Shown one piece after another: positions 23,535 through 58,957 of a stretch of 64,000 nt of DNA (position 1 is its first letter; each line of letters opens with the position of its first letter). The notes beneath the pieces are model-generated. The model was not told the DNA's origin. It did no database searches and saw nothing but the letters and a program-made list of their open reading frames with translations. Location: positions 1 through 64,000 of the forward strand of contig JAQUAF010000020.1 in the NCBI GenBank assembly GCA_028687435.1, in the 5' to 3' direction. This stretch comes from Verrucomicrobiia bacterium. GTDB lineage: Bacteria > Verrucomicrobiota > Verrucomicrobiia > JABWAM01. Both the position numbers and the translations under genes were made by a program.

Positions 23535-24272
23535 TCATCCCATAATTTTAAAAAATTGAGTTTTTCGCCCTCTTTTCAGAGGGAGCGATTCCATAAAAGC
23601 TAAAGCTGGGTTTATGAATTTTCTGTCAGAAAATGCCTCCATAAAATTTGTTGCTGTCCCATAATTATCGAGCAAAGAAATAAGATCCAGTTTCAACCAA
23701 AGAGCCGAACGCAACAGCGTTACAAGCCGATTGAAACTCTGCCCCCACTTGCTCAAAAATGCATGAAGACGAATCAACAAATAGACCAGCAAAGCCATCC
23801 ATATTTGCCATCGAACCGCATTGGCATTTTGACCGATAAAGTCGGTCAACCGCAAGGTCTGCTTGATCTGCTTGAAAAACACCTCGATGTCCCAGCGACA
23901 CCGGTAGAGTTCAGCCACCGTCCACGGCGCCCATTCCAGATGGTTCGTCAAAAAAGTCATTTCTCGCTGTTTGCCATCCACTTCCACCAGAGCCACAATC
24001 CGGCGCATCAATTCCGGAGCGCCAGCCGAGGGCTTTTGCAAGGCAATGATTTCATCTTTGAGAATCTTGGGTTCATGACGGGTCGGAAATTTTTTGACCA
24101 CCCTGTAAACCATGTTTTCCTTGGCCCGCGTGACCCAAAATATTCTACGCCGTTCCAAGTCTCCCAGATGGTCGAAACCGGAGCCCGCATCAACGACACC
24201 GCCAGTGAAATTCTCATTGGCATTGATCTGGAGCATCGACGGCAGGGGCATGGCCGGTGGGCGCTCCGGCAA
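23535..24272 (-). pseudogene. 5'-truncated IS4-family transposase
   Basis: The frame encodes 245 residues of the C-terminal part of a DDE transposase. It contains the IS4 YREK-type signature YRCRWDIEVFFKQIKQTLRL at about residue 122, preceded by IFWVTRAKENMVYR and followed by a hydrophobic helix (WMALLVYLLIRLHAFL). Full IS4-family proteins are about 350-400 residues. Here only a TTG could serve as start, a stop codon lies just upstream, and the N-terminal region with the first catalytic Asp is missing or degenerate (VVDAGSGFD where VDRGY is expected). It is very likely inactive. Confidence 0.8.
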
Positions 24273-55885: not shown

Positions 55886-56584
55886 ATGGAAAGACCTTTT
55901 GCCGCGTTTGGCCCCGATCATCTCGCTGTTTTGGGAGTCATGTCGATTCTCGCGGCGGGCCTTGCCCTGATGGGCAGGCGGGCGGACGAAAAAACACGAG
56001 CCTCCACATGCGCCTTTCTCGGCTGGGCCCTGGTCGGCTATGCCATGGCCTCGCACGGGTATCGTTTTTTTCACCAGACCTGGCGATGCCTCGACTGTTT
56101 GCCCCTGCAACTCTGCGACTGGGTGTTGATCGCCTGCATCATCGCCTTGTTCACCCGCAATTCCTTGGCCAGCGAAACCGCCTATTTTTTTGGCCTGACC
56201 GGCACCATGCAAGCCATCATCACGCCGGATCTCCAAAAAGGCTTCCCCTCGTGGCCATTCTTCCGGTTCTTTTGGGGACACGCCGGAATTGTGCTGGCCA
56301 TCGTCTGCATCCTGGCCGTCCAGCGTTTCCGCCCCCGTCCCGGCGCCGTCTGGCGCATGTTCAGCCTGATTAATTTTTACGCCGTTTTCGTGGGCGGACT
56401 CAACGCGGTCTTCGGCTGGAACTACGGCTACCTGTGCCACAAACCATCCAAAGCCTCCCTTCTCGACCACCTCGGTCCCTGGCCATGGTACATCCTTTCC
56501 ATCGAATTCATCTGCCTGGCCAGTTTCCTGCTGCTCTGCCTGCCCTGGCGGCTGCGTTCCCAACAATCACCCCGCAAATTTTGA
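55886..56584 (+). CDS. TIGR02206/YwaF-like integral membrane protein
   Basis: The protein has 232 residues with about six transmembrane helices. Family-type phrases: FAAFGPDHLAVLG at the start, LPLQLCDWVLIACI, and GLNAVFGWNYGYLCHKPSKA. Function of the family is unknown. The stop codon lies 2 bp before the left TTTA target site of the MITE. Confidence 0.8.
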   Translation: MERPFAAFGPDHLAVLGVMSILAAGLALMGRRADEKTRASTCAFLGWALVGYAMASHGYRFFHQTWRCLDCLPLQLCDWVLIACIIALFTRNSLASETAYFFGLTGTMQAIITPDLQKGFPSWPFFRFFWGHAGIVLAIVCILAVQRFRPRPGAVWRMFSLINFYAVFVGGLNAVFGWNYGYLCHKPSKASLLDHLGPWPWYILSIEFICLASFLLLCLPWRLRSQQSPRKF

Positions 56585-56589
56585 ATTTA

Positions 56590-56808
56590 GAGGCTCTTGC
56601 AAAACTACGATATGCGGCGCGATAAATCACTTTGGCCAAAGTGATTGTCGCCCAAGGGGTTGCGCGTCCATTTTCCAGCGACGGTCCCGCTTTGCGGGAT
56701 CGACTGTGCCGCACAGCGGCACCGCTGGGGGGATTGACCAGACTCCACGCCTTGCCAGCCAATCCATACCCGCTGCAACGCCGCGCATCGTAGTTTTGCA
56801 AGAGCCTC
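56590..56808. mobile_element. 219-bp MITE with perfect terminal inverted repeats and TTTA target duplication
   Basis: The ends carry 22-bp perfect inverted repeats beginning GAGGCTCTTGCAAAACTACG (56590-56611 and 56787-56808). TTTA directly flanks both sides (56586-56589 and 56809-56812). Inside are three more perfect hairpins: a 22-bp palindrome at 56625-56646, GTCCCGC/GCGGGAT at 56684-56700 and GTGCCGC/GCGGCAC at 56706-56722. There is no coding frame. It lies exactly between two convergent genes, and the right-hand TTTA contains the TAA stop of the minus-strand gene. It may serve as a bidirectional transcription barrier. Confidence 0.9.
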
Positions 56809-56809
56809 T

Positions 56810-58957
56810 TTATTCAATCCCCGCTTTTCGACACATGGGGATTTCCTTCGTCAAAATGGTTCTGACCAGGGCGACCTTCCACCGCAGGTGTTCGGCGTCG
56901 GTCATATACTCCATGCTGGGCTCCCAGCCCAGGCGCGAATCCCGCTCCACCAGGGGAATGGTTTCCTCCGCGTTGCGAATCTCCGCCACGGCCACCTTCT
57001 CCATGGCGTCCAGAATGGCATTCATCCTCCGCCGGTCCGGCGCCAGCATGAGCCGCTGGTTCAGTTGCCACCACTTTTTCACATTCGCCGTCGTGGTCAT
57101 CATGTTAAGCATGAACCGCCCCATGTTGAGCAACCGTTCTCCCTCATCCTTTTTGACCGAAGGCGTTTTTTTCAACGCCTTTTCCAACCATCCAATGCCC
57201 TGGCGCCACAACCGGCTCATCTGATGCAATCGGCGCAGTTCGCCCTTCAACCGGCAACCGGCCAAGGACTGCTGGCTGTTCTCCAGCGGCTTGTAGAAAC
57301 CAAGCGCAATGCCGCTGCCAAAATGCGCATGCCACGCCGAGGGAATCTTCACCTCCTTGGATGCAAAGGTGCGGGAAAAATTCGGATGAAAAACAAGCGG
57401 ATAGGACGGTCCCACACGGAATGGACCATATTGATCCTCGTTCGTCGGGGTATAATGGCGAATGGCTTCGCTCCAAGCCTGCCATGCCTTCAACACCAAA
57501 GGAGCGGCTGTCATCCCATAATCGCGCCGGGCAATGGCTGACGCGATTTCCTCCGTCGAAAAACCGGGCTCCCAATAGGCCCATTTGGCCAGTTCGCTGA
57601 CAAACGACGGCCACCAGCCAAAGTGATGCGACTCCATCAAACCGCAAAGCCCCCACTTCTCCCGCGCCTTGAGCAAGGCCCGGTGCCGCCGCGCCCACTG
57701 GAACGGCATCGGTTCGTAGGGAACCACCCCGAAATCCCACGTCAGCCCCCCCGTGTTGGCCATCGCGTAAAGACGAATCCCCCGGCGGCGCGCCACTTCC
57801 GCCTCCGATTTGAAATACTGCCCAGGTCCCTCGAATGAAAGCGTGTAATCCACACAAACATTCATGGCCTTCCCATTCGGGATGGGATTGAACATTTCAA
57901 AGGTGACCAGCAGGGTGATATCCGTGGGCAGCGTGTTCAACAAGGCCACACGGTCTTTTCGCGGCGCCCATCCCCAGTTGTAAGTCCAAAACACGATGTC
58001 CGCCTTGCTGTTCTGTTTTCGCACCGCTTTTTTGACCCTGTTCAGCCACTGCGGATAATCACGGCAGGGCCACCATCCGGGACTGGGTTTGGCGGGTGGC
58101 AATCCGTTCTCGTGCGGCGCATCATGCGGACGTCCGGTTGTTTTCTCATCATGGCTGGGAAACTCCACCGACTCTCCCACCAACACCACCCCCTTCGCGC
58201 GGGGACAGGCCTTGAAAAGCGCGCCATAAGTGCTGTCATAATAGGCCTCCGCATCCGGATCGGACGGATGTTTCTCGTTCTTCAAATAACTGTAAAAATA
58301 AACATCCAATCCAAACCGGTCCGCCCGGTCGATCAGTTCGTTAAAGTCCAGATATCCGCAAGTGGTGCGATCCGGCCCTTTCGCAAACACCAGGATCGAA
58401 TCAAATCCATGATGCGCCATGGCATTGAGATGCGCGTCGGGGAACTGGTCGATCCCCCAGCCGGAATGAACCATGCGGGGGGAAAAAAGAGGTTTCCGCG
58501 CCACATCCTGCCTCCTGACAAAAGGCGCCTCCCTCAAATTCATCAAATCCTCGAGATAAAAACCGCCCTGCGCCGCGCCCCGGGCGTCGCATCCGCACAC
58601 CACCACAAGACCGGGATCGCAGACCAGACGATAACTGCGAGGAACAGACAATCCCCTGCCCCATTTGGGCAGTTCCTCCTTGGAAGCCAGAATAATGGAG
58701 GGAATTTTTTCCGTAACAGCGGAAGCAACCTTCGCCACGGGAACCAGCAACACCGAAACCCCCATGCTGTCCAGCAGATAATCCTGCAAATCACGCGCGG
58801 CATTCCAAACCACCGGCGGCGCGGATTCCCCGATCACAATCCTCCACCCCTCCCCGACGCAAACCTCATCCTTCCCCGCAACCACCGCGGGATTCCGCCG
58901 CCCAACCCGGTGAACCTGATTCAACCGACGCCGGAACTGGTATCGTTCCTCTTTCAT
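56810..58957 (-). CDS. large glycoside-hydrolase-like protein (alpha-glucuronidase/GH20-N-terminal-like)
   Basis: The protein has 715 residues. Residues about 30-150 resemble the GH20b/GH67-type N-terminal alpha/beta domain (WRIVIGESAPPVVWNAARDL; VVVCGCDARGAAQGGFYLED). A TIM-barrel-like core follows (about 160-480: LVGESVEFPSHDEKTTG; DIVFWTYNWGWAPRKDR; LCGLMESHHFGWWPSFVSE), then a helical C-terminus. No signal peptide is clear. The exact family is unknown; catalytic residues cannot be named with confidence. Its stop codon TAA lies within the MITE target duplication. It is the last gene of a four-gene unit. Confidence 0.65.
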   Translation of the reverse strand: MKEERYQFRRRLNQVHRVGRRNPAVVAGKDEVCVGEGWRIVIGESAPPVVWNAARDLQDYLLDSMGVSVLLVPVAKVASAVTEKIPSIILASKEELPKWGRGLSVPRSYRLVCDPGLVVVCGCDARGAAQGGFYLEDLMNLREAPFVRRQDVARKPLFSPRMVHSGWGIDQFPDAHLNAMAHHGFDSILVFAKGPDRTTCGYLDFNELIDRADRFGLDVYFYSYLKNEKHPSDPDAEAYYDSTYGALFKACPRAKGVVLVGESVEFPSHDEKTTGRPHDAPHENGLPPAKPSPGWWPCRDYPQWLNRVKKAVRKQNSKADIVFWTYNWGWAPRKDRVALLNTLPTDITLLVTFEMFNPIPNGKAMNVCVDYTLSFEGPGQYFKSEAEVARRRGIRLYAMANTGGLTWDFGVVPYEPMPFQWARRHRALLKAREKWGLCGLMESHHFGWWPSFVSELAKWAYWEPGFSTEEIASAIARRDYGMTAAPLVLKAWQAWSEAIRHYTPTNEDQYGPFRVGPSYPLVFHPNFSRTFASKEVKIPSAWHAHFGSGIALGFYKPLENSQQSLAGCRLKGELRRLHQMSRLWRQGIGWLEKALKKTPSVKKDEGERLLNMGRFMLNMMTTTANVKKWWQLNQRLMLAPDRRRMNAILDAMEKVAVAEIRNAEETIPLVERDSRLGWEPSMEYMTDAEHLRWKVALVRTILTKEIPMCRKAGIE

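Follow-up and report, generated by a model that had tools for sequence, protein, structure and literature searches.

A probable IS1182-type MITE carrying a folded two-arm hairpin core conserved across Verrucomicrobiota

A 219-bp non-coding element found between two convergent genes of a Verrucomicrobiia bacterium is best understood, with a probability of about 0.8, as a miniature inverted-repeat transposable element (MITE) of IS1182 type that is moved in trans and carries a folded two-arm core as conserved cargo between exchangeable or fast-evolving terminal inverted repeats (TIRs). Definitions of MITEs commonly rest on their ends, with the interior treated as filler; in this family it is the interior that is conserved. 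The unexpected part, as judged from sequence comparisons, is that this covarying hairpin core occurs phylum-wide and is tied to no single set of ends.

The element in the window and its insertion site

The element lies in contig C131 of a 6-Mb draft genome of 154 contigs, within a stretch of 64,000 nucleotides (hereafter, the window). The features of the locus are the following:

55886-56584, plus strand: left gene, TMEM164 family (PF14808), intact, with TGA at 56582-56584
56580-56589, plus strand: left half of the palindromic target, TTTGAA-TTTA-TTCAAT in the empty site; predicted empty site at the locus, TTTGAATTTATTCAAT
56586-56589, plus strand: left target-site duplication, TTTA
56590-56808, no strand: whole MITE copy, 219 bp, non-coding, a truncated member of a 219-421 bp family
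56590-56611, plus strand: left TIR, assigned to the IS1182 type, GAGGCTCTTGCAAAACTACGAT, perfect over 22 bp
56625-56646, no strand: remnant of arm A, AATCACTTTGGCCAAAGTGATT, base stem only, delimited by alignment with copy L002
56647-56666, plus strand: linker GTCGCCCAAGGGGTTGCGCG, a mini-hairpin between the arms
56667-56769, no strand: arm B, in the chimeric form common to copies L002 and L003
56683-56701, no strand: tip hairpin GGTCCCGC-TTT-GCGGGATC in arm B
56706-56722, no strand: tip hairpin GTGCCGC-ACA-GCGGCAC in arm B
56787-56808, minus strand: right TIR, a perfect 22-bp match to the left TIR
56809-56812, plus strand: right target-site duplication, TTTA, its final 3 bases being the TAA stop of the minus-strand gene
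56810-58957, minus strand: right convergent gene, intact, 715 aa, without a match in Pfam, its TAA inside the right TTTA

The initial annotation, made from this stretch by itself, had described a 219-bp non-coding MITE with perfect 22-bp TIRs, TTTA on both sides and three internal perfect hairpins, and all of these features were recovered at 56590-56808, the hairpins at 56625-56646, 56683-56701 and 56706-56722. That description stood, including the 4-bp target duplication and the lack of coding content, which extends to the 219-421 bp copies; the truncation of the window copy and the phylum-wide core were invisible from the sequence alone. Two exact TIR matches were found in the window, where none is expected by chance, and, with the palindromic target counted in, the inverted repeat at the element ends extends over 39 bp at 90%. 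Folding of the element as RNA gave -126.1 kcal/mol (z -11.2 against shuffled sequences) and as DNA a z of -9.9 against the same kind of control. As had also been noted, no transposase with matching ends was found in the window; a PF01609 transposase domain resides in a 246-aa open frame (23775-24197, minus strand) unlinked to the MITE ends.

The position between two convergent genes, both with intact frames, and the location of the TAA of the minus-strand gene within the right TTTA were likewise upheld. However, the right TTTA had been thought to form this stop codon upon insertion, whereas the joined flanks read TGA-AT-TTA; thus, both stops, 2 bp apart, predate the insertion, and nothing was formed by it. 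The gene labels also changed: the left gene, taken for TIGR02206-like, scores as TMEM164 (PF14808, 165 bits), and the glycosidase-like character ascribed to the right gene finds no support in Pfam. The site fits the target motif of the family described below, and the 2-bp spacer between the stop codons would have been struck because of this fit and because an insert there could be tolerated without harm. The insertion site is a tiny neutral target. In the four other genomes searched within the bacterial family, identity of the left gene reaches only 48-50%, and the intergenic region could therefore not be aligned for a comparison with the empty site.

A mobile family with a probable link to IS1182 transposases

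Searching the draft genome for the terminal repeat yielded 57 and 63 matches (120 in total) with at most 3 mismatches, against none for the reversed control. Forty-three candidates with paired ends were recovered, and in 30 of them the ends are bordered by exact 4-bp duplications of many different sequences; 33 full-length copies of 219-421 bp, the window copy included, were found, so that the element is not a single-copy structure. The notion that the repeat is a chance terminator structure that does not move is refuted by the 120 TIR matches, the 33 full copies and the exact duplications, and we assign it a negligible likelihood. The targets of the family in this genome are AT-rich and palindromic around the duplication (WNWC-NNNN-GWNW). 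A 379-bp pair at L060 proved to be an artefact of overlap, caused by a loose TIR match, and was left out.

The window copy equals copy L002 at 219 of 219 positions, barring a 71-bp deletion at the base of arm A, which reduced this arm to a 22-bp palindrome and lies between short direct CAAA repeats (TTGGCCAAA in other copies); the full arm A is present in L007 and other copies. Arm B of the window copy combines a left base from another subfamily with a tip of type H, and this chimeric arm is common to L001, L002 and L003. Given the identity to L002 outside the deletion and the shared arm B, the window copy is a recent, truncated, ordinary member of the family and not its archetype.

Judged by its TIR, 4-bp duplication and palindromic target, the window element is confirmed as a MITE of the IS1182 group, and an IS1182-group DDE transposase would move it in trans through the TIRs. 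The IS1182 element ISPse1 has 16-bp TIRs and generates a 4-bp duplication (PMC3281130), and palindromic targets are mentioned for some IS1182 members in a passage citing Siguier et al. (PMC5678879). At least 71 loci from many phyla contain an exact copy of the 18-bp TIR. Among the matches listed are 34 short elements with paired ends, 21 of them with an exact 4-bp duplication, and these 21 MITEs of other phyla display the same target preference, WNWC-NNNN-GWNW. MITEs bearing the exact TIR GAGGCTCTTGCAAAACTA in the absence of the arm core were encountered in Nitrospirae, Geobacteraceae, Thiomargarita, Rhodothermales and others (GTDB loci L118-L188). In Massilia and Janthinobacterium, the matching loci are 1.4-kb elements with a transposase, whose nearest annotated plasmid relatives are named IS1182; their left end is the exact 18-bp TIR and their right ends carry 3-4 mismatches. 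The same TIR also flanks an annotated ISUnCu17-like element (ATGA/ATGA) and a Comamonas element (TGGT/TGGT), both encoding IS1182-family transposases. All scores against the IS1182 model lay well under its curated cut-off, which points to a divergent subgroup. No match to the TIR was found in viral contigs or in published papers.

The genome of the window itself encodes 7 near-full-length relatives of this transposase, with 49% identity to the one of Massilia (genome G000: L090, L091, L092, L095, L096, L100 and L197). The ends of these seven IS copies are diverged but related to the MITE TIR, and one right end matches it at 15 of 15 positions. A search for a full-length element sharing its ends with the MITE, proposed as a check in the initial annotation, recovered related ends but no exact pair: among the PF01609 matches searched in the 154-contig draft, in which a collapsed repeat could be missing, no autonomous IS has both ends identical to the TIR, and the seven IS1182-like elements are not flanked by clear direct duplications. 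L197 is preceded by TTTT and followed by AAAA, an arrangement reminiscent of the stem-loop replacement that has been proposed for IS1272 (PMC5678879).

IS1182-associated MITEs are already known: the ISMac2-related MITEs of Methanosarcina acetivorans are 160-169 bp long, and the 160-bp element is present in 14 copies, with end values of 26 and 4 that we read as an inverted repeat of 26 and a direct repeat of 4 (PMC3852290). Our family resembles these in being short and non-coding and in having TIRs of an IS1182-type IS, but differs in that its interior is a conserved folded core which also occurs between other transposon ends. With ISUnCu17 (plasmid NZ_AP026405) and ISPse1 it shares the 4-bp duplication and a palindrome-like target, and its TIR sequence is ISUnCu17-like; unlike both, the window element carries no transposase.

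The hairpin core across Verrucomicrobiota

An intact element consists of two inverted homologous hairpin arms of ~85 nt flanking a mini-hairpin; accordingly, copy L007 folds into a TIR stem, arm A, the mini-hairpin linker and arm B. Both arms carry AGGCG..GAG..ATCCCC..AGCGGGCT..CGA..CAACG, and the linker GTCGCCCAAGGGGTTGCGCG is recognisable as CGCCCNNNNGGGTTGCG in other genomes. Within the genome of the window, subfamilies are set apart by compensatory changes in the arm bases, and tips have been swapped between copies, giving ~20 base/tip combinations in 33 elements.

A search with the full element among 384 genomes of the class detected the core in related genomes without the TIR (which is absent, for example, from genome G003). 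A covariance model of arm A matched 61 of these 384 genomes and 41 of 171 genera of the class, often in many copies, with at most 11 matches scored per genome, so that copy numbers are lower bounds. In a phylum-wide sample the model matched 10 of 388 genomes, some of them in other classes. By contrast, the arm model had no match in 46 control loci (338 kb), among them MITEs from other phyla that bear this TIR. Since the core occurs without the TIR in relatives, and the TIR without the core in the control loci, each can occur alone. None of the IS copies examined (L090, L091, L092, L100, L132 and L176) contained the arm hairpin, no copy of the core was detected in plasmid records, and comparison with the Rfam 15 covariance models yielded no score that approached a gathering threshold. 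Single-arm versions of the element, of about 150-165 bp, were observed in other genomes (L301, L302, L351, L357 and L359).

In other genomes the core lies between different ends. Those of the GGAAGCGCTGATTTAATC type have exact 4-bp duplications in 9 of 18 cases, against a mean of 2.8 and a maximum of 8 when the pairing was shuffled; most of these duplications are YTAR, as in the IS5 group. Of 26 cases with ends of the GAGCCTGTCTGAAAATT type, 18 have an exact duplication of 3 bp, TNA (shuffled pairing: mean 7.2, maximum 16), and rarer ends around the core include GGGGTTGCCGCAAAATAA with TCA and GGGTGCCTCCGGAAACT with TAAT, among others. The IS1031 group of the IS5 family is characterised by the TIR GAACCTGTCTAGTATCT and a 3-bp TNA duplication (PMC12016507), which the GAGCCTGTCTGAAAATT ends around the core resemble; TIR and duplication, from which alone the assignment is made, suggest that these ends are IS1031-like. 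No transposase with exact GAGCCTGTCTGAAAATT ends was retrieved, and viral contigs contained no IS partners for the two TIR types other than that of the window element.

Several TIR types share the pattern GAG..T.....AAAA, with 10-12 of 19 positions alike, so that gradual evolution of the ends is as possible as swapping, and all ends might represent one TIR lineage drifting along with its transposases around a core that never changed family. This is quite conceivable, if somewhat disfavoured, since the duplications differ in length and target (4 bp, TNA, YTAR) and, in genome G279, the TIRs are just 57% alike between copies whose arms are 90% identical. Given its presence across Verrucomicrobiota between several transposon ends and its strong compensatory change, we take the core to be the conserved unit and the TIRs to be exchangeable or fast-evolving ends.

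Two inverted homologous hairpins and many intergenic copies are also features of REPINs and BIMEs, but the window family has DDE-type TIRs and target duplications. Repeats of the REPIN/RAYT-mobilised kind should lack target duplications, which are present here.

Covariation, strand bias and possible function of the fold

In an alignment of 10 arm A sequences made without reference to structure, 13 of the 28 pairs had changed on both sides. When 105 arms were aligned by the model, a procedure that fits the alignment to the model and hence leans towards it, 26 of 28 pairs were double-changed, 93.2% of the cells were paired against 62.6% in shuffled data, and the covariation score was 0.659 against 0.147, slid versions reaching at most 0.147. 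Wobble pairs on the motif strand of arm A comprised 42 G·T (G·U) versus 6 A·C events (binomial p 5e-8), counted once per genome after exclusion of one pair found as G·U in the majority of copies, a bias to which the fitting of the model may add. Such an RNA-like bias would be expected from selection acting on a folded RNA or on a single strand of DNA. It is absent from arm B (26 G·T versus 20 A·C), and no strand bias was seen in the stems of the window's own genome alone or from the orientation of the elements to genes.

Complementarity of the arms could also have arisen from template switching or conversion within palindromes, one half being copied onto the other, with no selection involved. 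The arms in the genome of the window are nearly perfect, with few intermediates, and the shuffling of tips and bases among copies implies that exchange does occur, both consistent with such conversion; nevertheless, we find it unlikely, since the same unpaired motifs are kept across families and symmetric conversion does not predict the excess of G·T over A·C in arm A. Conservation of the core is most likely due to a function as a folded single strand, which would be either RNA or one strand of DNA bound by a protein. A bolder proposal, tentative and in its entirety doubtful, is that the two-arm hairpin functions as a folded nucleic acid under selection on one strand and has spread through the phylum by taking on the ends of several unrelated transposon groups in turn. 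If true, the hairpin would be a non-coding hitch-hiker tied to no single transposase. If the interior is indeed the conserved part, occurring between ends with different target duplications, its fold would benefit either the element (through mobility or protection) or the host (through RNA processing or as a binding site), and one lineage would be broken up into many by families defined on their TIRs.

The initial annotation offered a different role, in which the stack of hairpins terminates transcription from both sides; more broadly, it might be a domesticated bidirectional terminator or a stabiliser of mRNA 3' ends that insulates the convergent genes. We consider this improbable. No intrinsic terminator (G+C-rich stem followed by a T tract) was found in 56500-56900, and the copies, assigned to gene contexts with a home-made gene caller, are located in 18 tandem, 9 divergent and 7 convergent spacers, with 6 called inside mostly weak ORFs, so that no preference for convergent genes was seen. 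Nor is their orientation relative to tandem genes biased (8 same, 6 opposite). The fold is indeed stable, both as RNA and as DNA, and 11 of 37 copies have a stop codon no more than 15 bp away, versus 4.9 expected, but this excess may stem from the AT-rich, TGA-like target motif. The terminator idea is without support beyond structure.

Like BOX and other mosaic intergenic repeats, the family is modular, with exchangeable hairpin segments, but its sequences are different and its modules reside at the arm tips of a transposable element. Elements of 45-51 bp made of two TIRs back to back were also observed (L065 460-505, L077 2976-3020, L064 2929-2979 and L072 552-601), one of them with an AAAT/AAAT duplication; these may be minimal MITEs, or what remained once the core had been lost. 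A second dispersed mosaic repeat is present in the same genome (L233-L252, e.g. G000:C134:42726; ~20 copies read) and consists of TAAATTAAGCCGGGCCCAAGGCCCGGCAACTGCTCGATCCGCCTTCGCCCAAGCGCTTCGGCGAGACAAGCGCACGACGCA followed by one of several alternative second halves. One MITE tip module shares with this abundant repeat a 36-nt palindrome, the central palindrome of the latter.
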